60,496 nt of DNA from assembly GCF_004124235.1 (NCBI RefSeq), contig NZ_CP032488.1:1-60496 (forward strand), read 5' to 3'. The notes below the pieces were generated by a model. That model was not told where the DNA came from. It ran no database searches and saw only the letters and a program-made list of their open reading frames with translations. This DNA comes from Yersinia hibernica. Its GTDB lineage: Bacteria; Pseudomonadota; Gammaproteobacteria; Enterobacterales; Enterobacteriaceae. Of this stretch, positions 1-53,017 are shown piece by piece; the first letter of the stretch is position 1, and each line of letters starts with the position of its first letter. The position numbers and the translations under genes were made by a program.

Positions 1-1599
1 TAGTTGCGTTTTAACTGGCTTCTGCAGAAAGGGGATGTTCATTGCAGTCAGCACTGCGGCCTGTTCCCCTTCCGGTACCAGTTCATCTGAAAGATGGCGG
101 TGCCGGAGGCTGTTGTTGAGGTGGAATTCCCCCGACTTAAAACGCTTTCTTATCTGACGATAGAGCCAGAACTCATAGCGCCCGGCATTCAGGCCTGTGG
201 GCTCGCCATCTTCACCAAACTCCAGCAGGTATGGACGCAGGCGTTCCGGTAATGTTTCCGGCGGACATTCCGCCAGTGGTCGCTGCAAAAGCGTCTGCTT
301 TTTGCTGAACACCATTCTTAGCCAGCTCAGCGCCTCAGCCCAGGGGCTGTCCTGAACCACGCTGGTGAGGTCGAGTGACAGATATAATGGCCTCAAGTGA
401 CGCCGGATTAACGCCGTCATACCGTCAACGGCCTGCCACTGCAGCGCCAATTTGCTGACGGGTTTCACACTCATGCGTTGTGCGGTGGTTTTCAGCATCT
501 CCCGGGGCATGATTTTCCAGGCCTGGCGGCGGACTTCGCCAAAGGTGGTGGGATCCGGAACGCTGTCATCAACATAAAGCGACAGCAGACGCCCGATTTT
601 AGATGTTTCGCGCCGGTGTTTTTCCTGCACGTCAGCCATGAGTTTTTTGGCCACGCTGCGGCTCTCATCTTCAAGCTGTTTCATATGGAAAAACATCGCA
701 TCCACCAGGTTGTCGCTGAACTGGCGATAACGGATCCAGGCATAACACAGCAGATAAAGGCGGGTCTGCTCAGGCTTCAGATTGCGGAGATCGTAAACGG
801 TATAGAAATTTGCCAGACTGGCGTAGTACAACAGATTTTGCTGAGAAATATTCAGCGCTGGCAGGATGTCGCAGGCCTTGCGATGCAGCGGTTCCAGGAT
901 GGCCCGTTTCTCCCGCTCATGGACCATCTGACGCCAGCCAAAGTCACGCGCATCCTGCCTGAGGACCGCAAGTCGGGAAAGGGTATCATCCCGTTCAATC
1001 AGTTTTTTTAGGTCAGCAATGGCGGCGTCATCAAGCTGTTCCATCAGAATACGTCCCAGCCGCTGCCTTTCATCAGAAAGAACCCGGCTCACCAGTTCCT
1101 GAAGTGTGGTGTAGCCGGGGCGGATGATTTTATGCGCGTTGAGCCAGATAATCAGCTCAGTGGCGACAAAGCCGGGGGTCACATCGCGGTGAACAATCCG
1201 AGCGGCCTGTTGTTCAAGCTGTGAAGACAGTGCTGATGACCATGGTCGGTAACCATACAGCGCGCAGATATTTTCCCGCTGAGCATAGCGCTCGTGCTTA
1301 GAAGGAGATTTGTCCGGAGGTGGCTCTCCCGGGAAATAACGGCTCAGAACAAACTTGCAGTCGTCCTGAACATCATCCCAGCCGAAGCGAAAAAACAGGT
1401 GTTTGGCTTTAAAGTAAGCGATTTGCAGAATGCAAAAGAGTTGAGCATGAAGCCCTTTACGATTGTTCACCAGTTCCAATTCAGATTCATCCAGAGCCAG
1501 AAACTCCAGCCGCTGTGCATCATCGAAATCAGGGATACCATATAATGCTTCCTGCTCGGCGTCCGAAAGAATACTGAGGAGTTTATTTTTATTGGCCAT
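1..1599 (-). CDS. tnpA: Tn3-family transposase TnpA, N-terminal 533 codons (continues at 60496)
   Basis: The gene starts at the ATG complement 1597-1599 (MANKNKLLSILSDAEQ...) and stays open to base 1, exactly 533 codons. The reading frame continues at base 60496 without a break, so the gene was split when a circle was linearised. The N-terminal part has the usual Tn3 TnpA features: DNA-binding N-terminus, then a long helical region (HERYAQRENICALYGYRPWS, PGYTTLQELVSRVLSDE). It is divergent from tnpR, with the res region between them. It catalyses cointegrate-forming replicative transposition of transposon A. The full protein would be 1009 residues, normal for the family. Confidence 0.93.
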   Translation of the reverse strand, partial: MANKNKLLSILSDAEQEALYGIPDFDDAQRLEFLALDESELELVNNRKGLHAQLFCILQIAYFKAKHLFFRFGWDDVQDDCKFVLSRYFPGEPPPDKSPSKHERYAQRENICALYGYRPWSSALSSQLEQQAARIVHRDVTPGFVATELIIWLNAHKIIRPGYTTLQELVSRVLSDERQRLGRILMEQLDDAAIADLKKLIERDDTLSRLAVLRQDARDFGWRQMVHEREKRAILEPLHRKACDILPALNISQQNLLYYASLANFYTVYDLRNLKPEQTRLYLLCYAWIRYRQFSDNLVDAMFFHMKQLEDESRSVAKKLMADVQEKHRRETSKIGRLLSLYVDDSVPDPTTFGEVRRQAWKIMPREMLKTTAQRMSVKPVSKLALQWQAVDGMTALIRRHLRPLYLSLDLTSVVQDSPWAEALSWLRMVFSKKQTLLQRPLAECPPETLPERLRPYLLEFGEDGEPTGLNAGRYEFWLYRQIRKRFKSGEFHLNNSLRHRHLSDELVPEGEQAAVLTAMNIPFLQKPVKTQL

Positions 1600-1766
1600 C
1601 CTTGATCCTTATGCATACCCCTTAAAAACGTAATTGTCACATTATCATTAAAATTACACCTTTACGTGTCATAATTTAAATGACGGGTAATGTGACATTC
1701 ATTGACAGATTGTGACCTCAAAATCAGAGTGTCACATAATCGAACGTATATGTGATAGGAAATAGT
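1600..1766. promoter_or_regulatory. Divergent tnpA/tnpR intergenic region, probable res site
   Basis: AT-rich, 167 bp, between the divergent transposase and resolvase genes. It contains several TGTCACAT/ATGTGACA half-sites in inverted and direct order (for example near 1635, 1690 and 1730), as expected for resolvase binding subsites and for resolvase autoregulation of both promoters. The exact crossover site was not resolved. Confidence 0.6.
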
Positions 1767-2381
1767 ATGTTAATTGGTTATATGCGGGTATCGAAGGCAG
1801 ACGGGTCACAGACGACGGACTTGCAGCGCGATGCGCTCATCGCTGCTGGCACCAACACCGCACATATCTATGAGGATATGGCTTCGGGTAGGCGCGATGA
1901 TCGCCCTGGATTGACTGCCTGCCTGAAAGCACTCCGCGAAGGAGACACTCTGATGGTATGGAAACTCGACCGTCTCGGTCGAGACCTACGCCATCTCATC
2001 AATACAGTACATGATCTGACTGTGCGTAGAGTTGGATTGAAAGTGTTGGCAGGACACGGCGCAGCGATCGATACGACGACTGCTGCCGGTAAGCTGGTCT
2101 TTGGTATTTTTGCGGCACTGGCTGAATTTGAGCGCGAGCTGATTTCCGAACGTACAGTTGCAGGGTTGGCTTCGGCCCGAGCTCGAGGTCGTAGCGGGGG
2201 GCGGCCATTTAAGATGACAACAGCCAAACTACGTTTGGCAATGGCGGCGGTGGGAAAACCGGAAACTAAGATAAATGAGCTATGTAAAGAACTTGGCATT
2301 ACCCGTCAGACGTTGTACCGGCATATATCTCCGGATGGCCAATTACGAACTGATGGAATAAAACTACTCAGTAAGATATAA
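1767..2381 (+). CDS. tnpR: Serine resolvase TnpR of transposon A
   Basis: A 204-residue serine recombinase. The N-terminal catalytic domain begins LIGYMRVSKADG, with the nucleophile Ser in MRVS and the arginine motif LDRLGRDLRHL. The helix region GIFAALAEFERELISERT follows, then a C-terminal helix-turn-helix (INELCKELGITRQTLYRH). The start at 1767 is chosen for its Shine-Dalgarno sequence (GATAGGAAATAGT) and the usual family N-terminus; an in-frame ATG at 1752 is also open. It resolves cointegrates made by the divergent transposase. Confidence 0.93.
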   Translation: MLIGYMRVSKADGSQTTDLQRDALIAAGTNTAHIYEDMASGRRDDRPGLTACLKALREGDTLMVWKLDRLGRDLRHLINTVHDLTVRRVGLKVLAGHGAAIDTTTAAGKLVFGIFAALAEFERELISERTVAGLASARARGRSGGRPFKMTTAKLRLAMAAVGKPETKINELCKELGITRQTLYRHISPDGQLRTDGIKLLSKI

Positions 2382-2450
2382 ACTATTATTCCGGAATAGT
2401 CAGAAATTTCGGTGGCCCACAGATAAGGTATGGTAGTTAAAGAGATAACT

Positions 2451-2528
2451 ATGTTAAATAAAAACAAATTAGCTGAAATATATAAAAAATTCGGTTTTAC
2501 GCAAGAAAAAACTTATGATGACAATATA
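2451..2528 (+). pseudogene. 5' fragment of an AT-rich gene cut by IS1
   Basis: An ATG with a good ribosome site (AAAGAGATAACT) opens a frame beginning MLNKNKLAEIYKKFGFTQEK that runs into IS1 copy A at 2529. Its low GC content matches the NTPase gene beyond IS1 copy B at 12394 and not the GC-richer adhesin block between. I infer that it may be the stranded start of that NTPase gene. The sequence alone does not prove this. Confidence 0.45.
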
Positions 2529-2544
2529 GGGTCGTGCCGCAGAT

Positions 2545-3048
2545 TTAGTGGTAATGGTTAATTGTCAGATACCATCCGATGATCTTATCGTGCATTTCTT
2601 CTGATTTTGAGAAGCAGATAGTCTTGCGGGCTAACCGTTTGAGATGGGTTCGCAAGTTCAGATTATGTCGCTCTATCCTCTGGGTGTATTTCTTGCTGAT
2701 AACATGACTGGTTGAGGACAATAAAGTGCGGTATACCGGCCAGGCATCGGTCATGTAGAAGGCAATGCTAAACTGGCTCAGCAAAACCAGAAGACGCTTT
2801 AATGTCAAAGCATTTCGCGGGCCAAATACATGGGCGATAACGCGCTTTCGGATGCGGTCATAGGCATAAAACAGCCAGCGTTGATTGCCTTTACAGCGGA
2901 CATATGACCACTGCTCATCGGCTTCACAGCAGATAACCACCTCTGCGCTAGGCTCTACGTTTTGCGCTACCTGGTGCGGCGTAAGTTTTTTAGATGACGC
3001 AGAACGGTATTGAGGCTTATCCGTAGAACCCGTGCTGTATCGCGGCAT
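2545..3048 (-). CDS. insB: IS1 InsB' (DDE transposase part), copy A
   Basis: 167-residue frame overlapping the insA end by 82 bp in the -1 frame. It carries the IS1 DDE catalytic domain ([41 protein letters not shown]). The product is the InsAB' fusion made by frameshifting at the A6C site. The upstream part of the frame before the slip site is probably not translated on its own. Confidence 0.9.
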
Positions 3049-3245
3049 CCGGAGCCGTTCATCGCCATATCAACGATGGCCTGATGGGTTTCGGGTTTAG
3101 CTCCGTTGTAGCGATAGCTGAGCTGGAAGGTCTTCAGGCATTGGTTACAGCGATAGAGCTGCGCCCCTGAGCCGGAGTGGCCGTTTCGGATAACCCCATG
3201 AGTTTCAGAACAGCGAGGACAAACCACATCAATCTTTGCCATCAA
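2967..3245 (-). CDS. insA: IS1 InsA (zinc-finger/HTH regulator part), copy A
   Basis: 92 residues. An N-terminal zinc ribbon (CPRCSETHG...CNQCLKTF) is followed by a helix-turn-helix. Alone it represses the IS. Near its 3' end the minus strand reads CTAAAAAAC, the A6C slippery site at which a -1 ribosomal shift fuses InsA to InsB to make active transposase. Confidence 0.93.
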
Positions 3246-3293
3246 TCATCCAAAGGGTAAAGAGTACACCAACACTAAGTTTGCGTCACGACC

Positions 3294-3528
3294 CATTTTT
3301 GGGCTAATGAATTTATTACTATTAACGGCTCATGCCACGTGAGCCTAGGAACGTGGATTGATTGACTTTTATTTTTATCGATTTCAACCAGCCGCATTAA
3401 TTTAGTCTGGGGGAATAATTGAGTTGGCTCACTTGCGATGTTGCTCGCGCTTTAGGCGTCTCGCTCGATTCGATGAAACTTTACTCAGGTACTTAGGACA
3501 GCGCGTTCGGCGCAAAGGGAATGGATTA
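3294..3528 (+). promoter_or_regulatory. Upstream region of the adhesin operon
   Basis: Non-coding stretch between IS1 copy A and the zirT-like start. An inverted repeat (CACGTGAGCCTAGGAACGTG near 3338) and an AT-rich run (TTTTATTTTTATCG) are visible. The operon promoter must lie here or come out of IS1. I cannot assign -35/-10 boxes with confidence. Confidence 0.35.
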
Positions 3529-5823
3529 ATGAAAACAACAATGCGTCTTTCGGCTATTGCACTGAGCATCATCGGTACGGGTTTTTTGACCGCGGCCTTT
3601 GCCGCACAGAATAGCGCCCCTTCAGGCTCTTCAACAACTCGCCTCTATGTCGTCCCGGCAGACAGTAGCCTTTACCAGTTAGCCCTGCAAAGCGGCATTA
3701 CGGTGGCGGAGTTGCGCACCCTGAATAACGGTGGGCTTAACCGTCGGGAGGCGATGAAGGCCGGTGAAAGTCTGCTGTTGCCTGCGAATTCTCCACTGTT
3801 GCCGATAACAGATGAATCGGGTCTGTATGTGAATAACCTGCCGGAATTAGGTATGGGCAATGACCCATTACCGAAAGCCGATAAGGATGGTCGGATGCCC
3901 GCCTCCGCCATGGAAATGAAGGCCGCCGGGATGGCTCAGTCCGTAGGGGGGCAGGACTGGAACAACATGTCCGGCGACCAGGCACAAAATCACGCTGAAA
4001 GCTGGGCGAAAAACAAAGCCAAAGCTGAAGTGTTGAATCCGGTCCAGCAACAGGCTCAGGACTTACTGGGAAAATTTGGTAAAGCCCGGGTTACCCTGGC
4101 AGTGGATGACAACGGGGACCTGACCAAGAGCTCGGCCTCGTTGTTCACGCCGTGGTATGAAAATGACGATGTGGTGACCTTCTCTCAGGTGGGTGTACAT
4201 GACCAGGATGGGCGAACCATCGGTAATTTCGGTCTGGGTGTGCGCTGGGAGAAAGAGGCGTGGTTACTGGGGACCAACACCTTCCTAGACCAGGACTTTA
4301 GCCGCAATCACAGCCGTCTGGGTCTGGGGCTGGAGTTGTGGGCCGACTACGCTAAGTTGGCGACCAACTACTACCACCCACTGTCTTCATGGAAAGACTC
4401 CAAGGATTTTGATGATTACTTAGAGCGCCCTGCTGAGGGCTTTGATGTCCGCGCTCAGGGTTATCTGCCGGTGTATCCGCATCTGGGTGCCTCGGTGGTC
4501 TACGAGCAGTATTTTGGCGATGAAGTGGCGCTGTTTGGTAAAGATAATCTGCAATCTGACCCGCGTGCGGTGACGCTGGGGGTGGACTATACCCCGTTCC
4601 CGTTGGCGACTATCAAAGTCAGTCATAAAGACGGTCAGGACGGCCAGTCAGAGGCGCAGGTTGACCTGCAACTGAACTACCAGTTAGGCACCGCACTGGG
4701 CAAGCAACTTGACCCGGACAATGTCGGCGCGATGCGCACCCTGCGCGGCAGTCGTTACGATATGGTTGACCGTAATTATGACATCGTTCTGGAGTACAAA
4801 GAAAAGTCCGGCTTACTGGATGTGGACTTAGCTGCCGTCCCCACCACGTTGCTGGAAGGTGACACTCACCTGATGCAACCGCTGGTCAAGAACAAGTACC
4901 GCATTACTCGTGTGACCTGGAATGGCGATACGGTGCCATTGGCCATACTGCCTACCGGGGGCGTCAATAACCCACAAGGCTGGCAAATCACCTTACCGGC
5001 ATGGCGTTCAGGACCGGGGGATATTAACCATTATCAGTTGTCGGTGACGTTAGCGGATGAAAAAGGCCGTCAACAGACGTCTAACCCAGTCGATATTTTA
5101 GTTGGACAGCAACGTCAGGGCTTGCTGGCATTAGAAAGTGCCGCCAGCGTCCCGGCATCGGGCTTGCCAACGGATGTGATTACGCTATCAGCTCACTTGG
5201 AAGACCATCAGAACCAGGCGGTGAATGACCCACTGGTCACGCCGGTCTGGAAAGTGACGGATGCGGTGACAGGGGTCGCAGTCCCCGTCGTGGCGGCTGG
5301 CGGGTCTTGTCCGCTGGATGCAGCCAGTCAGCCATTACCGTGCGTTCAGGCTCTTCGGACACAGGTGGATGTCCGTACGGGGATTAACTACTACGTTAAA
5401 GAATTGGTCAGTACGTTGAGCGGGTCGTTTATTGTGCGGGCAGACCTCGGGATTTACGGGATGAGTAATCCGCAGACCGTGACGTTCACCAGTGCAAGCA
5501 GTACCCATCTGGTGGTCAGGGCGGAGATACAGGACCCGGCGGGACAGGACTTACTGACGACAGGGGCATCCCCTCAGGTGGGCGTGACTTATACCGTGAA
5601 GTTATTTGACGAGGCGAACGTGGATATCACGACCAGTATTCCGGCGGCGAACGTGCAATGGGCGTTAGACGGCACCAATACAGCGGGATGTCCAATAACA
5701 CTGAACAGTTTTGATACCGGGGTGCGGGGATATCAGTTTACCCCGAGAACTAACGCCAACAGCAACAGTGGCGTGGCGTGTGGCGACCAAGGCTTTGGCC
5801 TGAAGGTGACGTACGCCCCGTAA
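3529..5823 (+). CDS. ZirT-like inverse autotransporter (intimin/invasin family)
   Basis: A 764-residue outer-membrane protein. Signal peptide about 1-25 (cleavage after TAAFA); LysM-like periplasmic domain about 38-85 (LYVVPADSSLYQLALQSG); inverse-autotransporter beta-barrel about 150-425 (NFGLGVRWEKEAWLLGTNTF, LGLGLELWADYAKLATNYYH); then Ig-like passenger domains, ending CGDQGFGLKVTYAP. The start at 3529 is chosen because it directly precedes the signal peptide; the open frame extends to 3424. Three secreted proteins follow, as ZirU and ZirS follow ZirT in Salmonella, where the beta-domain protein exports or displays separate Ig-domain partners. Expected role: surface anchor or exporter for the following proteins. 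Its passenger is shorter than in giant intimins, which fits a multi-subunit design. Confidence 0.88.
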   Translation: MKTTMRLSAIALSIIGTGFLTAAFAAQNSAPSGSSTTRLYVVPADSSLYQLALQSGITVAELRTLNNGGLNRREAMKAGESLLLPANSPLLPITDESGLYVNNLPELGMGNDPLPKADKDGRMPASAMEMKAAGMAQSVGGQDWNNMSGDQAQNHAESWAKNKAKAEVLNPVQQQAQDLLGKFGKARVTLAVDDNGDLTKSSASLFTPWYENDDVVTFSQVGVHDQDGRTIGNFGLGVRWEKEAWLLGTNTFLDQDFSRNHSRLGLGLELWADYAKLATNYYHPLSSWKDSKDFDDYLERPAEGFDVRAQGYLPVYPHLGASVVYEQYFGDEVALFGKDNLQSDPRAVTLGVDYTPFPLATIKVSHKDGQDGQSEAQVDLQLNYQLGTALGKQLDPDNVGAMRTLRGSRYDMVDRNYDIVLEYKEKSGLLDVDLAAVPTTLLEGDTHLMQPLVKNKYRITRVTWNGDTVPLAILPTGGVNNPQGWQITLPAWRSGPGDINHYQLSVTLADEKGRQQTSNPVDILVGQQRQGLLALESAASVPASGLPTDVITLSAHLEDHQNQAVNDPLVTPVWKVTDAVTGVAVPVVAAGGSCPLDAASQPLPCVQALRTQVDVRTGINYYVKELVSTLSGSFIVRADLGIYGMSNPQTVTFTSASSTHLVVRAEIQDPAGQDLLTTGASPQVGVTYTVKLFDEANVDITTSIPAANVQWALDGTNTAGCPITLNSFDTGVRGYQFTPRTNANSNSGVACGDQGFGLKVTYAP

Positions 5824-6000
5824 GGCGATAAGGAGATTGACCATGACAGTGCCCCCGGCACGGAGCCTCTGGATGAGGTTGATGGTCAGTCATTTTGATG
5901 CAGGCAGTTTGATTAACAACACGTGCGTTGACGCATACCAAGGCGGGGAAATCCCGGTTTATATGGCTCAGTGCCAGACAGCAATAAAAAGGAATGAACG

Positions 6001-6921
6001 ATGACAATGAATTTTAGAGTCAAAAAAATAGTACTGGCGCTGGCCCTCGCGGGCATGACGACAGGTTCCGTGTGGGCAGCCAGCACGCCCTCAACCAGTT
6101 CGGTACAGGGACGTGTCCCAGTATTGAGTGCCCCGTCTAACAATGCAACGCAGGCGGTTGATTTTAGCGGTACGTATGCTACGCCGGGACAGCTGTCCAC
6201 CGGTGACACGGTGGTCATGACCTATGACTACACCGACCTTGATGGTGACGCGGATAACTCATTGACCACGGTGAGCTGGAGTTATGCCCCGTTGGGTGGG
6301 GGAGCCGATGTGCCGATAACGGCGACTAATGTAGCGGCACCGAATTCAGGCGGTCAGGGGACCTCGACTATCACGCTCCCGATTGGCGCCTTAGGTGCGA
6401 CGGCCATTAAGGTGACGGTACAAGAATTTTCGGCGACGGGTGACCCGATTAGCGGTAGTACGATTACGGTGACAGATACCAGTCTGGCGAGCAGCCCTGG
6501 TGGTGGTGGTGGCGGTGGTACCGGTGTGACGCCTCCGGGTCCGGTGGTGGTTGGGGGCAATATTGCGGGCGGTATCTTCCTGGCTTCTGCCTCACCAGCG
6601 GCGGGCAGTGGTGCGGTGGATTACGCGCGGACGGCCACCAATCCGTTAGTGGGTCAGACCTACGTCTTCCGGGCTTGGAATGATGTGAACAGTAACGGCG
6701 TCTGGGATGCGGGTGAGGCGCAGGTTGTCCCTGCCAGCATTCAGTGGAAGCTAGATGGCACAAACACCACGGCGAACGGCACCAGTACGGTGGCGACGCT
6801 GAGTAACCACAGCATTGTTGGTGCGACCACGGATACCTACGCTATTCCGGCGAACAGTCTATCCAGTTCCGGTGCGACGCCGGGCGACCAGGGCTTTAAC
6901 CTGAAAGTGGATTTTAACTAA
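6001..6921 (+). CDS. Secreted Ig-like adhesin subunit 1 (ZirU/ZirS-like)
   Basis: 306 residues with a signal peptide (MNFRVKKIVLALALAG..., cleavage near SVWA). The mature N-terminus carries the pattern STSSVQGRVPVLSA, also found in the next protein, followed by an Ig-like domain. A linker of six glycines followed by TGVTPPGPV sits near residue 165-180. A second domain ends GDQGFNLKVDFN, matching the C-terminus of the upstream autotransporter. Ribosome site AAAAAGGAATGAACG. Probably exported by Sec and displayed through the ZirT-like barrel. It is a paralogue of the next gene and I infer tandem duplication. Confidence 0.75.
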   Translation: MTMNFRVKKIVLALALAGMTTGSVWAASTPSTSSVQGRVPVLSAPSNNATQAVDFSGTYATPGQLSTGDTVVMTYDYTDLDGDADNSLTTVSWSYAPLGGGADVPITATNVAAPNSGGQGTSTITLPIGALGATAIKVTVQEFSATGDPISGSTITVTDTSLASSPGGGGGGGTGVTPPGPVVVGGNIAGGIFLASASPAAGSGAVDYARTATNPLVGQTYVFRAWNDVNSNGVWDAGEAQVVPASIQWKLDGTNTTANGTSTVATLSNHSIVGATTDTYAIPANSLSSSGATPGDQGFNLKVDFN

Positions 6922-7072
6922 GTGCCCGTCCTGTCTTATTGATTGAAAGGTGGGTTGGGCCGAAGGTCTAACCCACCAAACCGAGACAGGCGATGAATCA
7001 AACGCCAAAACCGTCAGGTCTTGCGCGTCATGCTCGACATCAATGAACACATTAAACCAAGGAAGAAGTGAA

Positions 7073-7975
7073 ATGAAAAAGAACAATACATTTACGTTAA
7101 AGAAGCTGGTTCTGGCGTTAGCGCTGGCCGGTTACACCATGAGCAGTGCGTATGCGGTGTTAACGCAACCGACCGGGACTATTCAGGGTACGGCACCGAT
7201 ACTGAGTGCGGTATCGAATAATGCGCAACATGCGGTTGACTTTAGTGGTACTTATGCAGTGGCAGGTTCGCTGAGTTCGGGCGATACCATCGTGATGGAA
7301 TATGGCTACGCAGATAGCGATGGCGATGGCGATGATTCCTCGGACAACACACGTGTCACATGGGCTTATACCCCTGCTGGCGGAGGCGCTGACGTTGCCA
7401 TTGCCTCGACGGGCGTGAATGCCACCTCGGGTACACCGGGTACCTCGACCATCATATTACCGGCTGGCGCGGTTGGTGCGACAGTGATTAAGGCGACGAT
7501 TCAGGAATACTCAGCGTCGGGTGACCCAATTTTTGGTCAGACGATTACGATTGCTGATACCAGCTTGACTACGGCACCTGGCGGTGGTGGCGGTGGTGGT
7601 ACAGGCGTGACCCCTCCAGGCCCGGTCTTACCAGGCAGCAACGTGACTCCGGGTATTTACCTGAGCACGGACGCGGCGTTTGCTAACAACCTGATTGGTA
7701 CGGCGACGAACCTGAATGTTGGCGACACTTACGTGTTTAAACTGTGGGATAGCGCGGCAGTGGGTACAACCGACCTGACGTCGACGGTACCGAACTACAA
7801 CTGGCGTTTAGTGGGTCAAAGTGCGACGGATAGCGTCACTGCACCGGGTACAGGCTTTATTACCAGCGTCACGGGCGGCAACTTCACTATTCCGGTGAAC
7901 ACGGCAGCAGACGGTACTCCGTTAACGGGTTCTGCGGACGGTGCGCAGGGCTTCAATCTGGCGGTCGACTACTAA
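7073..7975 (+). CDS. Secreted Ig-like adhesin subunit 2 (ZirU/ZirS-like)
   Basis: 300 residues. Start at 7073 after GGAAGAAGTGAA, directly before the signal peptide (LKKLVLALALAGYTMSSAYA). The mature part begins VLTQPTGTIQGTAPILSA, then an Ig-like domain with an acidic SDGDGDDSSDN loop, the same six-glycine TGVTPPGPV linker as subunit 1, and a second domain ending GAQGFNLAVDY. The open frame extends to 6950, but the earlier start would bury the signal peptide. A strong terminator follows at 8012. Confidence 0.75.
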   Translation: MKKNNTFTLKKLVLALALAGYTMSSAYAVLTQPTGTIQGTAPILSAVSNNAQHAVDFSGTYAVAGSLSSGDTIVMEYGYADSDGDGDDSSDNTRVTWAYTPAGGGADVAIASTGVNATSGTPGTSTIILPAGAVGATVIKATIQEYSASGDPIFGQTITIADTSLTTAPGGGGGGGTGVTPPGPVLPGSNVTPGIYLSTDAAFANNLIGTATNLNVGDTYVFKLWDSAAVGTTDLTSTVPNYNWRLVGQSATDSVTAPGTGFITSVTGGNFTIPVNTAADGTPLTGSADGAQGFNLAVDY

Positions 7976-8011
7976 ACCCAGTCTCCATCGGGTTAGTGTC
8001 AATCAGGACCA

Positions 8012-8037
8012 CGGGCAGGGTTTTCCTGCCCGTTTTT
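8012..8037 (+). terminator. Rho-independent terminator after subunit 2
   Basis: Stem CGGGCAGG/CCTGCCCG with loop GTTTT and then TTTTT. It separates the DGR target gene from the upstream operon, so the target probably needs its own promoter in 8041-8265 or depends on read-through. Confidence 0.85.
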
Positions 8038-8265
8038 ACCCCAGAAGGGGGGTGCATTGAATCACACGCATAAAGGCAGCTTCGTTGTGGGCATGAGAAT
8101 ACGAAGAACACGAAGACGAACGAGAAGAACACAGAGTGAAGACAGTGAGTACTGGGTTATCTGCTATGGCGGGTACCGCGGTAGTCATTGTTGATGACAC
8201 GCACGATAAACGATGCACCCCGGGACTGTTTGGGATTGTGACAGAGATTAAAGAGGGAAGGAAGA

Positions 8266-9429
8266 ATGAGAGATAACACACTGGGATGGGTTAGTCACCC
8301 GCTGACGCGTATTGCGCTTATTGCGGCCGTCACCATGGGGGCATCGACTCCGGCTTGGTCTGTGGTGCTGAGCAACCCGACGGGGCAGATAAAGGGGAGA
8401 ACGCCTACGGCGGCAGGCTCGGTATCGATACTGAAGCCAGGCGCCACCCCATTGGTGGATAATGACCAGGTACTGGGGAGCGAGAAACCGAACGAGTTCA
8501 CGCTGGCCCCACTCTCTCCTGGCGTCACGTTCACGGATTTGGATGGGGACACTCAAGCCGTTCCGGGATTGGCGATTGCGCCCGCGGGGGTGACTTGGAC
8601 GTGGAAGAATGGCCTCACGCCATTAACTCCCACCCAACTGACCCAGACGTTTGCGACGAACTTTGCTCACAACACCACCCTCACGGTACAAGCGAATGCT
8701 CCAGTGCTGAGTACATCACTCACCGGCTTGCCGACCACATCGGGCACCCCCATACCACTCGCATCACCGGTATACCGAGTCCGAGTGAATAATCCGCCAC
8801 CACCTGTCATCTATGTGAACGGAACGACGTTTGCATGGAACAGCGGATTTCCGACGATGGGATTTGTGGGTGCCAAGTTTCAGCTGTACATGAACGGGGT
8901 TGATGCGACAGCGAACAGTAATTACACCTATAAGGAAAATGGCAACCAGACTTGGGTTGATATCCCGGCCTCAAACGCGAGCGGGACTGAAGGCACGTTC
9001 ACCTTCACGGGTACCCCTACTAGTGCAAATAAGACATTAAAACTTATCGCAACAAACAAAACAGACAGCAGCGACGAGCACACACTCAATATCACTCTCG
9101 GACGCTGGTTTGTCAATGGTGGCGCGACTACCAGAACCGCAGCGAATGCTGACGCATATTGTACCGGGTTAGGAGGTGGTTATAGTACGCCGCCATACGC
9201 CACTATGACAAATGCGGCGTATGGCGCGGTAGGAACGCGGGCACCATCCGCTGGGCTATGGAGTCAGTGGGGGGCGATGGGCACGTTTGGTTCCGGTTGG
9301 CTCAGCAACTACTATTGGGCCCTTGAGCCTGGGGGGGCTGGTCGGCTCCACGTCGACCTCGACAATGGCGGCCTGTACAGCGTCAATCCGAGCGGCAACT
9401 ACTATGTGGCTTGTTCGAGGGTCCTTTAG
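8266..9429 (+). CDS. DGR target: secreted tip protein with C-type-lectin-like domain
   Basis: 387 residues. Signal peptide ending near TPAWS; mature start VVLSNPTGQIKGRTP shares the PTG-Q(I)-(Q/K)G-x-x-P pattern with the two Ig-like subunits. An Ig-like region spans about 35-270, with a PPPPVIYVNG linker near 180. From about residue 275 (RWFVNGG) to the end is a C-type-lectin-like domain of the kind found at the tips of inverse autotransporters, with a likely Cys pair (DAYC and VACS). Its last 44 codons are the variable repeat. The variable positions fall in the ligand-binding part of this fold in known DGR targets. Expected role: adhesin tip with a diversifiable binding face. Confidence 0.88.
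   Translation: MRDNTLGWVSHPLTRIALIAAVTMGASTPAWSVVLSNPTGQIKGRTPTAAGSVSILKPGATPLVDNDQVLGSEKPNEFTLAPLSPGVTFTDLDGDTQAVPGLAIAPAGVTWTWKNGLTPLTPTQLTQTFATNFAHNTTLTVQANAPVLSTSLTGLPTTSGTPIPLASPVYRVRVNNPPPPVIYVNGTTFAWNSGFPTMGFVGAKFQLYMNGVDATANSNYTYKENGNQTWVDIPASNASGTEGTFTFTGTPTSANKTLKLIATNKTDSSDEHTLNITLGRWFVNGGATTRTAANADAYCTGLGGGYSTPPYATMTNAAYGAVGTRAPSAGLWSQWGAMGTFGSGWLSNYYWALEPGGAGRLHVDLDNGGLYSVNPSGNYYVACSRVL
9290..9421 (+). repeat. DGR variable repeat (VR)
   Basis: 132 bp aligning without gaps to the template at 10242-10373 (constant offset 952). There are 20 differences; 19 are at template adenines (to G 12 times, T 5, C 2) and one is T to G at template position 10285. The last 25 bases before the end (TATGTGGCTTGTTCGAGG...) are identical, and identity then stops two codons before the target stop codon. 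Changed residues include ISN to LSN, NNYW to NYYW, PNGTN to PGGAG, RHNVN to RLHVD, and SNNN to SGNY. Confidence 0.95.
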
Positions 9430-9478
9430 TTTTTAGCATTTAATATTTAATTTTAAGCTTTTTTGCCCTTATTCTGCT

Positions 9479-9537
9479 CGCCCCCTTAAAGGGGGCGGTG
9501 ATGGGGCGCCCGTTAGGGCGCGTTGTAAAATTTTTTT
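9479..9537 (+). promoter_or_regulatory. Paired hairpins just after the variable repeat
   Basis: Two perfect inverted repeats: CGCCCCCTT-A-AAGGGGGCG at 9479-9497 and GCGCCC-GTTA-GGGCGC at 9506-9521. The second is followed by a T run at 9531-9537, so it may be the gene's terminator. A GC-rich hairpin or cruciform downstream of VR is required for efficient homing in the Bordetella phage DGR. The first hairpin, 58 bp past the VR end, could play that part. This is inference from position and structure. Confidence 0.6.
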
Positions 9538-9567
9538 ACTATAACGCCTTATTCGCAAGGAACAGAC

Positions 9568-10035
9568 ATGATTATCGAAGATAAGTTAGCGCTAAGCAGG
9601 CGCCCGGGGGTTATCAGTTTTATTCGCGAGGGGATGTTTTATCGGTGTTATCAGCAGTCTTTATTTTTTTATTTAACGCAGTGTGATGGAAAAATAAAAA
9701 TCCTCGGTAAGCGCATTAAAAAGCTAGGTGGAGAAGCGGTGTTTTATGGTGGATTTCCGATGACACAATTTGAGCAACGTTATCCTCAAGCTGAATTGAC
9801 TGGGTGGGGCGCGGAGATTCAAGGTGACTGGTCTGATAGGGATTATGTTCTCTGGTATGAAGAATGTGTCAACTCATTGCTATCGGAAATAGCTACGGCG
9901 CCTCAGGATGACGTGGATCCTTTTGTATTAACGCAACAAATGCGCCATTTTTTGCAGTCTTGGGAGCCGGGATGCTATCCGCCTGCGGTGGAGTCCGGTT
10001 TCATTCAGGGATTGAAACAGCATTTATCCTTGTAA
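9568..10035 (+). CDS. DGR accessory protein, MutS N-domain-like
   Basis: 155 residues, ribosome site AAGGAACAG. It is not the four-helix Avd protein. The N-terminal half (GMFYRCYQQSLFFYL...GGEAVFYGGFPMTQF) resembles the start of MutS domain I, where an FYE motif is followed by a GIP/GVP motif. MutS-like small proteins are known as an alternative accessory in some DGRs. It lies between VR and TR on the same strand, so a transcript from its promoter would run into the template. The function, perhaps chaperoning template RNA or cDNA or interfering with mismatch repair, is inferred. Confidence 0.6.
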   Translation: MIIEDKLALSRRPGVISFIREGMFYRCYQQSLFFYLTQCDGKIKILGKRIKKLGGEAVFYGGFPMTQFEQRYPQAELTGWGAEIQGDWSDRDYVLWYEECVNSLLSEIATAPQDDVDPFVLTQQMRHFLQSWEPGCYPPAVESGFIQGLKQHLSL

Positions 10036-10241
10036 TTGAGGATTGCGTGACAGCATGGCAGTGCATTAAGGGCTATTTCGTTACGGCGAATAGATAATTT
10101 GCTAAAGGGAAAACCGGCTCGCACCACGGAGCTCCGATGTGTCATAGAGTTTCGTTATAAAGGGGCGAACTCCGAAAGGGGATAAGCTGGTGGTATGAGA
10201 GTGCGAGCAATGTTAATGGCGTGCCCATGTGGGGCGGCTGT

Positions 10242-10373
10242 GTTCCGGTTGGATCAGCAACAACTATTGGGCCCTTGAGCCTAATGGGACTAATCGGCAC
10301 AACGTCAACCTCAACAATGGCAACCTGAACAGCAACAATCCGAGCAACAACAACTATGTGGCTTGTTCGAGGG
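10242..10373 (+). repeat. DGR template repeat (TR)
   Basis: Non-coding 132-bp copy of the 3' end of the target gene. It contains 40 adenines. Read in the VR frame it holds 15 AAC/AAT codons, which cannot give a stop codon when A is randomised, the classical DGR design. Its 3' limit is 6 bp from the stop codon of the reverse transcriptase on the other strand. An open frame across it (10229-10429) is a by-product and not a gene. Confidence 0.95.
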
Positions 10374-10379
10374 GTTTTC

Positions 10380-11600
10380 TCACTGACCGTGCTGTCTCCC
10401 AATCCATGTTGCAAGGGCATGCTTTTTGATGCGAACCGACGTGTAATCGCTGTTTGCTGGAATGAACCAGTGCTTCAAGTGGCAAAAATGGTATTGGTAA
10501 AGTTTTTTTCGTAATCGATAGTGATTGGCCTTTTGCATCAGACCGAAGTAACTATTCATCACGGCTTGCATTTTTTGTAACAAGACGTAGTCGGGTGTGA
10601 TGGGTGCCAGTTGAATGCAGGCAGCCCATTCAGGATTATCGGGTTTTGTTGGGGGTGGGCTACCCTCCGGATGAAGGCAGTAGTTGAACAATGCCAACCA
10701 GCGACGAATTTTATTCAGATTCCGGGTGCGTAAATGAAGGTAGTGCGGATAAATTTTATATCCCAAATAATCAGCGCCTTGGGAACAACGTTGAAGGTGC
10801 TGCTTGGTGGGATGCAAGGTTAATCGGAGTGTGTGGGTTAGGAAGGTCGAGATTTCTTCGCGCCATTCAATCAGTTGTTGTGATGAATTGCCCAGTAGCA
10901 TGAGGTCATCCATGTAGCGGACATAGCCTTTCACATGCAGTTGATGCTTGATGAAGTGGTCTAGTGGGCTGAGGTAAAGATTGGCAAACAGTTGACTGGC
11001 CGATGACCCCAGCGGGAGGCCCGTTTGATAAGGCGATGCGCCTAGCGTTTTGTGGCATGGAATGGTGTCGAGTAATGTTTTATTGCCACTCAGTGAAACG
11101 GCGTGGTGCGCGACGGGATGGAGAATAGTTCGCATCAGTAACGCCATCACGCACGCTTTTCTGGGATGTTCTGGGAGCGATGACATGATGCCATTTGTTG
11201 TCATAGACACCAGCGTGGGTAAGTGAATGCTATTGAAAAAGTTTTGGATATCTAATTGTAAAAAATGACCATGTTGAGGTTGTCGCATAAAACGCTGAAC
11301 GCGATGTATCGCTGCGAGAGTGCCTTTGCCCGAGCGGTTAGCGAATGTGTCGCCAATCAGTTGGCGTTCGACAGTTGGTTCAATTTGACTGACTAGCCAG
11401 CATTGGGCCAGACGGTCACGAAAAAGTGGCGCATAGATTTCGCGAAGTTTTGGGTCATTAACAGCAAATCGAGTATAGGCGCCTGGTTGGTAGGTTTGAT
11501 GAAATAAGTCGTATGCCAGAGATTGGCAGAGTGGCGCAATACTTTCCAGTGCCAGTGATTTTTGGAGGCTAGCCGATGTCGTGACAGCACATTGGAGCAA
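10380..11600 (-). CDS. DGR reverse transcriptase, 5' end cut by IS1
   Basis: 406 residues from a TTG at 11600. Visible motifs: PGAYTRFAVNDPKLREI and FRDRLAQ (about 39-66); LQLDIQNFF with the first catalytic Asp (about 117); LPLGSSASQ (about 196-203), the [I/V/L]GxxxSQ form that marks DGR enzymes; and the catalytic YMDD (229-232). The frame stays open upstream of the TTG into IS1 copy B, and related enzymes have some 20-30 more residues before the PGxY motif. The native start and promoter were probably removed by the IS. It copies TR RNA into adenine-mutated cDNA that replaces VR. It lies on the opposite strand to VR, TR and the accessory gene. Confidence 0.93.
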   Translation of the reverse strand: MLQCAVTTSASLQKSLALESIAPLCQSLAYDLFHQTYQPGAYTRFAVNDPKLREIYAPLFRDRLAQCWLVSQIEPTVERQLIGDTFANRSGKGTLAAIHRVQRFMRQPQHGHFLQLDIQNFFNSIHLPTLVSMTTNGIMSSLPEHPRKACVMALLMRTILHPVAHHAVSLSGNKTLLDTIPCHKTLGASPYQTGLPLGSSASQLFANLYLSPLDHFIKHQLHVKGYVRYMDDLMLLGNSSQQLIEWREEISTFLTHTLRLTLHPTKQHLQRCSQGADYLGYKIYPHYLHLRTRNLNKIRRWLALFNYCLHPEGSPPPTKPDNPEWAACIQLAPITPDYVLLQKMQAVMNSYFGLMQKANHYRLRKKLYQYHFCHLKHWFIPANSDYTSVRIKKHALATWIGRQHGQ

Positions 11601-11644
11601 TTCTTGCGTCAGTATTTGAAGAGAAAAAGGGTCGTGCCGCAGAT

Positions 11645-12148
11645 TTAGTGGTAATGGTTAATTGTCAGATACCATCCGATGATCTTATCGTGCATTTCTT
11701 CTGATTTTGAGAAGCAGATAGTCTTGCGGGCTAACCGTTTGAGATGGGTTCGCAAGTTCAGATTATGTCGCTCTATCCTCTGGGTGTATTTCTTGCTGAT
11801 AACATGACTGGTTGAGGACAATAAAGTGCGGTATACCGGCCAGGCATCGGTCATGTAGAAGGCAATGCTAAACTGGCTCAGCAAAACCAGAAGACGCTTT
11901 AATGTCAAAGCATTTCGCGGGCCAAATACATGGGCGATAACGCGCTTTCGGATGCGGTCATAGGCATAAAACAGCCAGCGTTGATTGCCTTTACAGCGGA
12001 CATATGACCACTGCTCATCGGCTTCACAGCAGATAACCACCTCTGCGCTAGGCTCTACGTTTTGCGCTACCTGGTGCGGCGTAAGTTTTTTAGATGACGC
12101 AGAACGGTATTGAGGCTTATCCGTAGAACCCGTGCTGTATCGCGGCAT
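11645..12148 (-). CDS. insB: IS1 InsB', copy B
   Basis: 167 residues, identical to copy A. Expressed as an InsAB' fusion. Confidence 0.9.
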
Positions 12149-12345
12149 CCGGAGCCGTTCATCGCCATATCAACGATGGCCTGATGGGTTTCGGGTTTAG
12201 CTCCGTTGTAGCGATAGCTGAGCTGGAAGGTCTTCAGGCATTGGTTACAGCGATAGAGCTGCGCCCCTGAGCCGGAGTGGCCGTTTCGGATAACCCCATG
12301 AGTTTCAGAACAGCGAGGACAAACCACATCAATCTTTGCCATCAA
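12067..12345 (-). CDS. insA: IS1 InsA, copy B
   Basis: 92 residues, identical to the copy A protein, with the same A6C shift site. Confidence 0.93.
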
Positions 12346-14039
12346 TCATCCAAAGGGTAAAGAGTACACCAACACTAAGTTTGCGTCACGACCCAGGTTT
12401 TGGTAAAACATGTACAGCATATGAGTTGTTATTAGAGCTAGTGACAAAAAATATTGGCAAAATACCACTTTTTTCAGAGTTATCTCGAAACAGGCAAGCA
12501 AAAATATTTCGGTATGTATTACTCGACGAAATTGATAGGAGTTTCCCTCTTCTCAGTTCATCACTAGTTAGAAATGAAGTTCGTGCTGGAAATGTTCCTG
12601 TTATACTTGATGGCTTTGATGAACTTCTCCATGAAAGTACTAGTAACGATCAAGTAAACTATGAAAAAACAGAGCCAATGCTGGAAACCATTACTGAGTT
12701 ATTGACTGACAGTGCAAAAGTGGTATTAACAACCCGTAGAACTGCTATTTTTGACGGCGATGATTTTCATCAGTGGATTGCTTCACATAAAGATGACTTT
12801 GATGTTATCAGAATAAGAATCCAGGAACCACAAATTGAAGATTGGATTCCAACAAACCGTTTGCAAGAAATTTCATCAGCAGGGTTCCCACTCGATAAGT
12901 TATCAAACCCAGTATTATTATCATTTTTAAGATGTATAGATGATAATGATTTTGAAAAAGTAGTCAAAGATCCAACAAAGATTGTTAGAAAATACTTTGA
13001 CTCAATGCTTGAAAGGGAGAGGAAACGACAAGATTTATTAATGTCTATTGAAGATCAATATAAAATACTGAAGATCATAGCTGATGATATGGTGCAGGGA
13101 AATTATACATCTGAGTCTCGTGAATATATATCTCTCGTGATAGTGGAAAAAAATCTATCTTTGCTAGAAGCGACGAGAAAACTTTACACTGTTGACGAAA
13201 GGCCAACAACTGATGAGATTGTTAATAAGCTTGCTTCCCACGCGCTTCTTGACCGTTCAGGATCTGAAGGACAAGGTATCGGTTTTGTTAATGAATTTGT
13301 CCTCGGGAATTTCGTATCAGAAAATATTATTGATGACAGCAATAATGAATGGATCGGAGATAAACGTTTCATAGAACCCGCAGTGCAGTCTTATATGCCC
13401 AGAATTGATGATGAGAAAGAATTGCTTTGGCATAGCCTTGAATTTTCTTTAAATTTCATGTCAGGACATGACAAAATTTTGTACTGTCACAATCTATTAG
13501 GCAAAGTCCCATTAGATTTGAACCAAGATAGTGTTGAGCAATTAGTGATAACGAAGCTCAGTCTTGGCGATAAAAACACCATTACTGATACGATCTTTGT
13601 AGACTGTTCCTTCTTTAGTAGCGAACTCATATGTACAAATTTTCGTAATGTTACTTTTGTAGGTTGTTCTTTCATTGACTGCAGTTTTTTATATTTAGAT
13701 GGTAAGGAAGATATTTACTTCCTTGGTTGTGACTGTAATAATGATGCTATTCAGCAAAAAATATTAGAATTAGATAATGAGTCTGATAATAACATTACAG
13801 ATTGCGACATATATATACTTGAGAAATTTTGTCCGAAGGGGAGTGTTAGTTATTATAAACACAGGCCAATTAAAGGTTTGTGTGAAAATAACAATCATTT
13901 TTATCTTAATGAGATACTCTATACTATCCAGAAGCTTAAAAAAGAAGGCTATTTACTCACGCCAGACAAACGTTCATTCCTAGAATTAAATATGTCGAAA
14001 ATATCAGAAATAAAAACAATTCTAGGGAGATCGGTATAA
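12336..14039 (+). CDS. NACHT-type STAND NTPase, N-terminus replaced by IS1 sequence
   Basis: Native sequence starts at about 12394. The first 19 residues of this open frame come from the IS1 end, so the gene is 5'-truncated. Visible: the tail of Walker A (DPGFGKT, with His where the first Gly should be because IS1 cut there), Walker B/NACHT signature VPVILDGFDELL (about 87-98), sensor 1 VVLTTRR (about 129-135), and a C-terminal stretch with pentapeptide-like spacing (CSFFSSELICTNF, CSFIDCSF; about 419-455). It overlaps the next gene by TAATG. STAND NTPases of this kind often act as sensors in phage defence. As it stands, ATP binding is probably impaired. An IS1-derived start may or may not be used. 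Confidence 0.75.
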   Translation: MPSIIQRVKSTPTLSLRHDPGFGKTCTAYELLLELVTKNIGKIPLFSELSRNRQAKIFRYVLLDEIDRSFPLLSSSLVRNEVRAGNVPVILDGFDELLHESTSNDQVNYEKTEPMLETITELLTDSAKVVLTTRRTAIFDGDDFHQWIASHKDDFDVIRIRIQEPQIEDWIPTNRLQEISSAGFPLDKLSNPVLLSFLRCIDDNDFEKVVKDPTKIVRKYFDSMLERERKRQDLLMSIEDQYKILKIIADDMVQGNYTSESREYISLVIVEKNLSLLEATRKLYTVDERPTTDEIVNKLASHALLDRSGSEGQGIGFVNEFVLGNFVSENIIDDSNNEWIGDKRFIEPAVQSYMPRIDDEKELLWHSLEFSLNFMSGHDKILYCHNLLGKVPLDLNQDSVEQLVITKLSLGDKNTITDTIFVDCSFFSSELICTNFRNVTFVGCSFIDCSFLYLDGKEDIYFLGCDCNNDAIQQKILELDNESDNNITDCDIYILEKFCPKGSVSYYKHRPIKGLCENNNHFYLNEILYTIQKLKKEGYLLTPDKRSFLELNMSKISEIKTILGRSV

Positions 14040-14941
14040 TGTATAATGCAAATGAACTTCGTATAGTTCAAAACTTACAGAATAATATTGAATGCGAACT
14101 CAATAGAATTGGTCTGTTATATCGTTTCTTTTCCAGAACAAAATCAGAAAGCTCTATTACTAAAAAATTCCTTAAAGAACCAGATAAATATTCAGAATAC
14201 GGGAAAAAGATTCAAGATTTATTTGGCGTCAGAATTATTCTGTATTTTCCTGATGATTTACTAATAGCACAGGAAGCATTGAGTAAATTATTTCAAGTTG
14301 ACTCAAAAACAGTTGATGAAGCTGCAACTGACAATTTCTCTGCCACTCGCTGTAATTATGTGTTTAGACTCCCGGTTGATTTATCATCTGATAGTGTACT
14401 TATAAAGAAATATTCATATATAGATAAGACTTTCGAAGTTCAGTTCAGAACTATTCTTTCAGAGGGTTGGCATGAAGTCGAACATGATTTACGTTATAAA
14501 TGCAAGGACGATTGGAACGAGCACAGCGATCTCAGCCGTGCGTTAAATGGAATATATGCATCCCTTGAAACATCAGACTGGGGTATCATGAAATTATTTG
14601 AGGAGTTGGCATATCGAAATTATAAATCTTCATCATGGTCTGCTATGTTAAGAAACAAATTAAGACTGCGAATGGATGATTCTATTGATAGTAATATCAT
14701 CGAAATAATAGATGAGAAAAACCTAGGGAAAGATTTCTTTAGAATTGACAGGAACAAACTTTTAACCCTTATGTTGAATTACGATATAGATATACCGATA
14801 AACCTCAATAATATTATATTCTTATGCAACCATTTTTTCGTTAAGTCTCTCGATCTAAAAAATATTGCTCCAAGATTAATTTTACAAAAATTTATGGATG
14901 CAGAGGAAAAATATAAGGAGAAAAAATTTTTGTCTTCTTGA
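14039..14941 (+). CDS. RelA/SpoT-type nucleotide pyrophosphokinase-like protein
   Basis: 300 residues, translationally coupled to the NTPase (TAATG overlap). It carries the synthetase fold motifs: basic ATP site RTKSESSITKK (about 33-43), DLFGVRI (Asp60, Gly63, Arg65), FEVQFRT (Glu133, Arg136), and WHEVEHDLRYK (about 144-154). There is no HD hydrolase, TGS or ACT domain, so it is a small-alarmone-synthetase-like or toxin-like enzyme that moves pyrophosphate onto a nucleotide or RNA. I do not know a named system with this exact partner pair. A NACHT sensor next to a nucleotide-targeting enzyme suggests abortive-infection defence (inference). Low GC content marks it as foreign to its neighbours. 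Confidence 0.82.
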   Translation: MYNANELRIVQNLQNNIECELNRIGLLYRFFSRTKSESSITKKFLKEPDKYSEYGKKIQDLFGVRIILYFPDDLLIAQEALSKLFQVDSKTVDEAATDNFSATRCNYVFRLPVDLSSDSVLIKKYSYIDKTFEVQFRTILSEGWHEVEHDLRYKCKDDWNEHSDLSRALNGIYASLETSDWGIMKLFEELAYRNYKSSSWSAMLRNKLRLRMDDSIDSNIIEIIDEKNLGKDFFRIDRNKLLTLMLNYDIDIPINLNNIIFLCNHFFVKSLDLKNIAPRLILQKFMDAEEKYKEKKFLSS

Positions 14942-15055
14942 TGAGGTGATATTCAAAAAATAAAAGGTGCATAGGGATTAGGCTATGCACCTAATGTTGG
15001 ATTTTTCGTATAATTTGGACAGCGTTTTTTCACATGAGTTATGCAAATCTGCCTT

Positions 15056-15093
15056 TAGTGACGGAATTTTCTGGGATTCCGGCGTAGAACCCC
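15056..15093 (-). repeat. Transposon A terminal inverted repeat, right
   Basis: Read on the minus strand from 15093 it begins GGGGTTCTACGCCGGAA. The first 17 bases equal the left end, then there are 7 differences in 21. It is followed by AAATA at 15094-15098, the second half of the target duplication. Confidence 0.88.
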
Positions 15094-47800: not shown

Positions 47801-47889
47801 ACTATACATTTACGCTTGCAGAACAAGTAACAAAGGGCCAGCTCAGACCTCTTAAGCAGGCGGACGAGGCGGATGATTGGCCTTTATGA
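44881..47889 (+). CDS. tnpA: Tn3-family transposase TnpA of transposon C
   Basis: 1002 residues from a TTG with AGGGAGGGACTT in front, a usual start for this subfamily (MPADFLNAEQRASYGQFSG). Catalytic DDE: Asp in VASADGMRF, Asp in EIMTDTAGSSDLIFGLFW, Glu in LNRGESRHAVARAI. Full length and intact. It shares only the family fold with the transposase of transposon A. Confidence 0.95.
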   Translation: MPADFLNAEQRASYGQFSGEPNDIQLARFFLLDEVDMDFINNRRGRSNRLAVALLIGSVRFLGAWPYDLSAIPTNVLWFVARQLGISDTGVLSDYSRRETTLREHQALIRRQYGYRDFSWPWTFRLSRLLFTRSWLSNERPGLLFDLATSWLLQNKILLPGVTTLTRLISEIREKSAERLWSRLSGLASGEQRSLLEELLQVPDGVRTSRFDQLRKGPVAISGPAFNQAIARYLKLKAFGMQDLDFTGIPPVRFNALARYTDMISVYKIARMQPIRRTAMLVAFVRSCEISALDDALDVLDGVIADIGREAKKLGQKKRLRTLKDLDKSALELAHICSVLLDENVDSELLRSTIFGKVPPARLADTIAFINAIARPSDTSFHDEMVEQYGRVRRFLPCLLENIEFSAAPAGETTLEAIRYLAAIRSTRRQHIDDAPMAIITGPWKRLCYGKDGHLSRQGYTLCVMNKLQDSLRRRDIYVAQSDRWGDPRAKLLRGQDWHTNRVQVYRSLGHPLNAREAVNALTRQLDTVYRQVAKNFVDNQAVSLDFTGKRTKLTIAHLNGLDEPPTLKLLSKRISDLLPVVDLTELLLEINAHTGFAEEFTHASEAGARMDDLTVSICAVLLAEACNIGLEPFIRPNIPALTRYRLSWTKQNYLRAETLVKANARLVDYQSTLPLAQKWGGGEVASADGMRFIAPVRTVHAGPNRKYFGSSRGITWYNFISDQYSGFHGVVVPGTLRDSIFVLEGLLEQQTGLNPTEIMTDTAGSSDLIFGLFWLLGYQFSPRLADAGASVFWRVDKDADYGVLNDIARNAANARKIEQHWDDMMRMAGSLTLGTIRASVLIRSLLSSDRPSGLTQAIIEAGKINKTLYLLNYIDDEDYRRRILTQLNRGESRHAVARAICHGQKGEIRKRYQDGQEEQLGALGLVTNAVVLWNTIYMQAALAHLRDEGEVINEEDEVRLSPLRHAHINMLGHYTFTLAEQVTKGQLRPLKQADEADDWPL

Positions 47890-51200: not shown

Positions 51201-51248
51201 AAAACCTCCTGACAGGGCAGCAATGCTGCCCTGCGTGATGACAATAAA

Positions 51249-53000: not shown

Positions 53001-53017
53001 ATGTCCTCCTGACATAC

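Follow-up and report, generated by a model that had tools for sequence, protein, structure and literature searches.

The closest described relatives of the locus analysed here are the 'inverted' diversity-generating retroelements (DGRs) of Group 4, described by Schillinger et al. (PMC3521204) and represented there by Shewanella baltica OS155 (plasmid pSbal02), Vibrio sp. RC586 and Photobacterium angustum. That 2012 paper already reports gammaproteobacterial DGRs that are carried by plasmids or adjoin transposon genes, as well as DGR reverse transcriptases (RTs) broken by transposon insertion. The DGR in question lies on contig NZ_CP032488.1 of Yersinia hibernica, a sequence of 60,496 nucleotides that was analysed in full (the window) and that forms the whole second contig of a two-contig, 4.80-Mb genome, the first contig having 4,742,939 bases. 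It is of the inverted layout: as in Group 4, the RT is encoded on the strand opposite the template repeat (TR), the variable repeat (VR) and the target gene. The two also agree in TR/VR length and in having a homologous accessory gene at the same position, and the RT is 44% identical to that of S. baltica. In contrast, the Group 4 targets are annotated as Ig-like and have an OmpA-family neighbour, whereas the target in the window resembles domains D4-D5 of invasin and has SinH/SinI-type partners, and the window copy is flanked by IS1 and damaged. The sequence comparisons make it highly probable that this DGR once rewrote the receptor-binding face of a secreted adhesin of the invasin/intimin type, and that it is now damaged by IS1, with its VR frozen in a mobile transposon.

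Other known systems share parts of this arrangement. The DGR of Bordetella phage BPP-1 (mtd/avd/brt) has the same adenine-specific TR/VR differences, a related RT and a lectin-fold target, and intact relatives of the window locus possess an avd-like gene; the window locus differs in its inverted layout, in having a bacterial adhesin rather than a phage tail tip as target, and in its location on a plasmid transposon rather than a phage. Salmonella ZirTS(U) and SinH-SinI (IatB in E. coli) likewise consist of an inverse-autotransporter barrel followed by separate genes for secreted partners, here including two SinI-family proteins, but the window adds a third downstream protein, with an invasin-type tip that appears to have been hypermutated by the DGR. 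Yersinia invasin and E. coli intimin carry an Ig-like D4 and a C-type-lectin-like D5 domain at the C terminus, as the target does, while the latter is a separate protein without its own barrel and VR would rewrite part of its D5. Few bacterial adhesion domains have been studied as thoroughly as these tips, whose lectin-like fold is the one preferred by DGRs. An earlier note on this DNA, made from the sequence alone, described DGRs as best known from phages and from chromosomes of other phyla. Plasmid and transposon associations of DGRs were already known, which makes that aspect less new than the note implied; the new parts are the invasin-type target, the exact transposon ends and the freezing. 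Searches of open-licence papers gave no account of a DGR target that is both invasin-type and SinH/SinI-linked, of exact Tn3 ends bounding a DGR (nor, by title or start of abstract, of any Tn3-borne DGR), or of a single strain whose plasmid copies diverge in VR only, and no paper found combined a DGR with an inverse autotransporter, with Budvicia, or with the set MutS-like/Avd/plasmid.

VR regions are systematically lectin-like, according to PMC8144416, and the VR of the window (9290-9421, forward strand) lies in the part encoding the C-terminal, C-type-lectin-like tip of the target, at the 3' end of its gene. It aligns with TR (10242-10373, forward strand) over 132 bp with zero gaps and 20 differences, of which 19 are at template adenines and one is not. 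Adenines make up 40 of the 132 TR positions (hypergeometric p = 5e-11 for the concentration of differences at them). This program alignment reproduces exactly the coordinates and counts given in the earlier note. The coding design that the note had described is also borne out: in the VR frame, 15 of the 43 TR codons are AAY, and none of the 25 codons with adenine can be converted to a stop by adenine changes. In the target gene outside VR, 12 of 341 codons could become stops in this way. By computation, about 10^23 proteins are reachable by adenine changes in TR. Two GC-rich inverted repeats, sought as an end or downstream repeat of the initiation of mutagenic homing (IMH) type, were seen by eye ~57-100 bp past VR.

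Close relatives with intact copies are found in Budvicia aquatica DSM 5075 (locus L003) and in an IMG/VR record (locus L007, record G395), and both have a TR identical to that of the window. The window and the IMG/VR copy align over 8,117 bp without gaps and with 43 mismatches. VR holds 31 of these (28 at TR adenines), the remaining 7,985 bp hold 12 (p ~1e-47 for the clustering in VR), and TR and RT are identical. Within each relative, the differences between its own VR and TR are again mostly at adenines (12/12 in B. aquatica and 18/20 in the IMG/VR copy), and the same TR does occur with different VRs, as the earlier note had suggested looking for. Relative to DSM 5075, the window shows 2 differences in the 2,062 bp of accessory gene, spacer, TR and RT, 54 in the 1,024 bp of the target outside VR, and 19 in the 132 bp of VR, 18 of these at TR adenines. 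Around rpoB, the genome of the window is 96% identical to two genomes of the same genus and 84-86% identical to B. aquatica DSM 5075, which makes the host related to Budvicia but distinct from B. aquatica. Because the DGR core is near-identical while the rpoB regions are 14-16% apart, the core has evidently been transferred recently between distant hosts. Past DGR activity appears to be visible in the VR-concentrated divergence, with mutagenic homing as its probable cause. By eye, the intact IMG/VR copy of the DGR adjoins phage-tail-like genes that are separated from it by IS1-type elements (L106:10400-20000).

More distant relatives occur on plasmids. Matches to the RT were obtained by tblastn in 56 plasmid records, of which 23 reach a coverage of 80% or more; 14 records were taken for comparison. 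All 13 Vibrio and Shewanella records have a TR/VR pair with 16-22 differences, at most two of which are not at TR adenines, and in the single Aeromonas record 12 of 12 differences are at TR adenines. The Vibrio unit has the order avd-RT-TR-accessory-target-OmpA-tnpR-tnpA and is bounded by its own Tn3-type ends; its target, in the only one examined (L008), has Big_2 repeats, an Lcl_C/InvE_AD-like end and an OmpA-like barrel next door. Both ends of this transposon were located in three records, each time with perfect 5-bp duplications (ATTTT, AATTT and ATCAT). The avd-side end is present in 9 of the 16 loci checked, all from Vibrio and each with a distinct 20-base flank; it is absent from two Shewanella and three Enterobacterales loci, and in two further Vibrio loci the sequence begins at or near the start of the record. 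Judged by these ends and flanks, a different Tn3-family transposon carries the related DGRs of Vibrio and has inserted at nine different sites. V. vulnificus GCU-01 carries the DGR locus on three plasmids (L113, L126 and L129), one of them typed IncC. Over 3,220 bp of alignment, the copies on plasmids -2 and -3 are distinguished by 22 mismatches, none of which lies outside VR and 21 of which are at TR adenines. The target of the third copy is shifted and more different, with no gap-free comparison, and its VR differs from those of the other two at 20 and 22 places. The copies on V. harveyi NH-LM1 plasmids pvh4, pvh5 and pvh6 (L112, L127 and L128) are indistinguishable over 2.8-3.2 kb, including VR, as though they had transposed very recently.

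That the VR variation arose by ordinary recombination among paralogous targets, and not by reverse transcription, is very improbable. The genome of B. aquatica DSM 5075 (G394; L043-L071) does offer possible donors, with 28 target-like places besides the TR frame, several clustered on one contig, and the target outside VR differs between the window and this strain (54/1,024 bp) next to a near-identical DGR core, a pattern compatible with recombining targets. However, recombination predicts no adenine rule, and the differences lie at template adenines in 19/20 cases within the window, in 28/31 between window and IMG/VR copy, and in 21/22 in V. vulnificus, where plasmids -2 and -3 are identical outside VR over the 3,220 bp. 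The idea that one TR serves all B. aquatica paralogs was rejected, as most of those tested show no adenine bias and are therefore not its current targets. This test covered 21 of the 28 loci and 18 distinct best places, of which low-scoring ones may miss VR; four places are adenine-biased at p < 0.001 (12/12, 21/25, 19/32 and 20/36 mismatches at A), one further low-scoring alignment has p = 0.002, and the remaining paralogs have no such bias. A few of the 28 places carry adenine-biased VRs with extra decay, and a related database protein (P0005) looks frame-shifted in VR.

The RT gene (10380-11629, reverse strand) matches RVT_1 and encodes LPLGSSASQ and YMDD, thus having the SQ dipeptide and YxDD of DGR-clade RTs. 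The best solved relative of a full-length homologue is 8ub7 (E = 2.5e-29), which we take to be the BPP-1 DGR enzyme. The earlier note was right about both motifs and about the position beside TR, but the frame is open to the edge of an IS1 at 11629 and does not stop at 11600. There are three IS1 copies in the window, and two direct ones bracket the DGR cassette (2529-3294 at its left flank and 11629-12394, both on the reverse strand and 99.7% identical). The second, whose open reading frames (ORFs) match IS1 transposase and InsA domains, has removed the 5' end of the RT gene including the start codon, and occupies the place of the RT 5' end and of avd in relatives. In the B. aquatica and IMG/VR copies, the RT gene has a longer 5' end and overlaps a divergent avd-like gene encoding 133 residues. 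A small ORF adjoining avd is kept in both of these intact copies (L003:9192-9515 and L007:610-915). No avd was found in the window or in the 4.8-Mb genome by DNA or protein search, whereas the same search succeeded in 5/5 other genomes or records; the accessory gene that separates VR from TR is a different gene from the avd-like one of the relatives. Because IS1 sits at the RT 5' end and avd, and the genome search found no avd, the window locus is most likely a disrupted DGR, its copy inactive and its VR frozen. The working self-diversifying adhesin envisaged in the earlier note is, with the RT 5' end and avd lost, not supported for this copy.

It is improbable, in our judgement, that the plasmid DGR is still active, with the RT made from an alternative start (perhaps under an IS1-borne promoter) and Avd either not needed or borrowed. 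Several points nevertheless weigh on that side or against other parts of the main reading. The RT frame is still open to the IS1 edge, with 406 codons from a TTG and the catalytic motifs kept, so the gene could be weakly expressed from a different start. A recognisable Avd, moreover, is lacking in some functional DGRs. TR is unchanged and 1/20 VR differences is non-adenine, so the damage would be recent. The name 'avd' is itself based on position, on the 45-48% identity that the 133-residue protein shows with its Vibrio, Shewanella and Aeromonas counterparts, and on weak bAvd matches: among four homologues scanned, those of Vibrio and Aeromonas match at E ~5e-5 (~24 bits), that of Budvicia at E 0.03 (15.2 bits) and that of Gilliamella not at all, all below the Pfam bAvd cut-off of 40 bits. 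Comparison of avd-like proteins with solved structures gave nothing credible. The use of the SinH-like barrel by the target, moreover, is suggested by operon position. Some further observations either count against the main reading or say little. In two Enterobacterales genomes (G114 and G229) the avd-like matches are interrupted by a stop codon; among 394 genomes searched, the two others that belong to the genus of the window have no RT match; the RT of V. parahaemolyticus pTJ20-1 is annotated in two pieces, so that this copy may be broken too; and VRs are identical within the V. harveyi plasmids pvh4/5/6, three V. parahaemolyticus plasmids and two S. baltica plasmids, because of which there is just one strain whose own copies are seen to diverge. 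Against continued activity stand the lack of any avd found in the genome, the loss of the native RT start, and the reconstituted BPP-1 system, in which inactivating Avd or bRT lowered the repair frequency to ~10^-9 (PMC12875486).

The cassette is carried by a Tn3-family transposon. Its tnpA is split over the two contig ends, with the N-terminal part (DUF4158) at 1-1599 and the C-terminal part (DDE_Tnp_Tn3) at 59066-60394, both on the reverse strand, and a tnpR-type serine resolvase was recognised by domain match at 1752-2381 (forward strand). The outer inverted repeats, at 59034-59071 (tnpA side, preceded by AAATA) and 15056-15093 (followed by AAATA), are 38 bp long and imperfect (31/38 identical); their 7 mismatches compare with at least 12 for any 38-mer in 200 shuffles. 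Because tnpA is intact in a Y. massiliensis copy, its split over the ends indicates that the contig is circular, in which case the transposon comprises 59034-60496 and 1-15093, or 16,556 bp. The repeats, the 5-bp target duplication, tnpA and the plasmid-like contig confirm the Tn3-family transposon on a plasmid proposed in the earlier note. The Y. massiliensis copy, on plasmid NZ_CP054046, is the same transposon without the DGR, at another site with the target duplication TGGTG. Window positions 59034-60496, 1-2532 and 12394-15093 match it at 99.96-100% (100% for the first), and the place of IS1-DGR-IS1 is taken there by 381 bp that the window lacks. A NACHT-like NTPase gene that is open in this plasmid, on both sides of the record start, is reduced in the window to a 5' remnant cut by the first IS1 (2450-2528, forward strand, with the frame start of the Y. 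massiliensis open frame) and a 3' remainder (12395-14039, forward strand). The next gene, for a RelA/SpoT-domain protein (14039-14941, forward strand), is also in the empty transposon.

Because the copy without the DGR keeps the NACHT-like gene open, the comparison suggests that the DGR entered an existing transposon as an IS1-bounded unit. A clean composite IS1 transposition was considered and rejected, as inspection by eye shows no target duplication and the NACHT-like gene has lost 381 bp. These same features, the lack by eye of an 8- or 9-bp duplication in the 12 bases outside IS1-DGR-IS1 and the missing 381 bp, would fit the opposite order, in which the transposon already held the DGR when IS1 inserted. 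We regard this order as rather unlikely: the Y. massiliensis transposon matches the window outside the IS1 copies but lacks everything between their outer edges, and the IMG/VR record G395 has IS1 beside the same cassette at a different distance than in the window.

The DGR target (8266-9429, forward strand, 387 residues) has a signal-peptide-like N terminus and an Invasin_D4 match, and its C-terminal part matches Yersinia invasin D4-D5 (1CWV, E = 4.5e-27), in keeping with the secreted adhesin tip predicted in the earlier note. No DGR target structure is among the 50 structure matches listed for it, which says nothing either way. It lies downstream of an inverse-autotransporter gene and two SinI-family genes, all on the forward strand. 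The first (3529-5823, start taken from the G395 copy) encodes an IAT_beta domain (E 2e-103) with a weak LysM match, and reaches 388 bits against the SinH (NF033423) cut-off of 999, so it is called SinH-like only. In B. aquatica DSM 5075, the contig with the DGR ends before the corresponding gene. The SinI-family proteins (6001-6921, 221.6 bits; 7079-7975, 276.4 bits, start chosen by eye in an ORF from 6950) exceed the NF040711 cut-off of 165 bits, as does no other. The target was itself tried as a SinI-family protein and rejected, having no NCBIfam match and an insignificant BLASTP result against the second SinI. Between VR and TR there is, as noted earlier, an accessory gene (9568-10035, forward strand, 155 residues), which is uncharacterised. 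Homologues occupy the same interval, from VR to TR, in the loci read from Vibrio, Shewanella and Budvicia, and a position beside TR in Gilliamella. A 'MutS-like' accessory gene of DGRs is an existing idea; assignment of this protein to MutS domain I was rejected, with no MutS match in Pfam among 22 members and no PDB relative.

From this arrangement, a mechanism may be proposed. In the manner of ZirT, which exports ZirS, the SinH-like outer-membrane barrel (3529-5823) most likely takes its partners, the DGR target and both SinI-family proteins, through the outer membrane, and the exposed tip would bind a ligand. In intact relatives, RT and Avd would make an error-prone copy of the TR RNA, the errors falling at adenines, and this cDNA would replace VR, which encodes the C-terminal ~44 residues of the C-type-lectin-like tip. 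With the cassette placed between two IS1 copies in the NACHT-like gene, the RT 5' end and avd were lost, and the present VR is most likely a frozen product of earlier diversification, on a transposon that is itself mobile. In this enterobacterial plasmid a DGR, capable in principle of the ~10^23 variants computed above, is joined to an invasin-type tip beside its likely export partner. Now that the transposon ends and target duplications are exactly known, together with an empty site and a pair of plasmid copies differing in VR only, DGR mobility and re-diversification after transfer become directly testable, and the frozen copy raises the question of whether loss of the RT machinery is a means of fixing a useful variant. 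More tentatively, and with less than even confidence, a mobile cycle of 'diversify, copy, freeze' might operate on adhesin tips. Tn3-family DGR transposons would seed copies on other replicons, each diversifying its own VR (as in V. vulnificus GCU-01); IS1 capture or avd loss would freeze chosen tips, which could then be passed onward; and the 28 target-like places of B. aquatica would be an archive of frozen tips.

Among the 394 Enterobacterales genomes, 67 have an RT match at E <= 0.001 and nine at E < 1e-20, that of the window included. Three of these, G114, G229 and G051, have avd-, RT- and accessory-like genes side by side. The bee-gut symbiont Gilliamella bombicola has a DGR (L004:9563-12088) and, on other contigs (L047, L053 and L057), adenine-biased VRs in a related tip; mismatches at TR adenines are 17/20, 14/22 and 10/13 (p 4e-7, 0.002 and 7e-4; three of seven target loci tested). 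Megablast found no DNA copies in plasmids, phages or E. coli genomes, a search from which records of the window's own genome may be excluded. Proteins with a related tip also occur in Y. intermedia (P0014) and on Y. enterocolitica plasmids (H41 and H42), and P0014 ends in 45 residues similar to the translated TR.

Elsewhere in the window there are an usher of a chaperone-usher system (36779-39157), arsB/arsA-type genes (49911-53027), and a metal P-type ATPase (41065-43464) in the vicinity of another Tn3-family transposase, the second of the window (44881-47889). A CopA-like antisense RNA, presumably typical of IncFII-like replication control, is located at 56617-56703.

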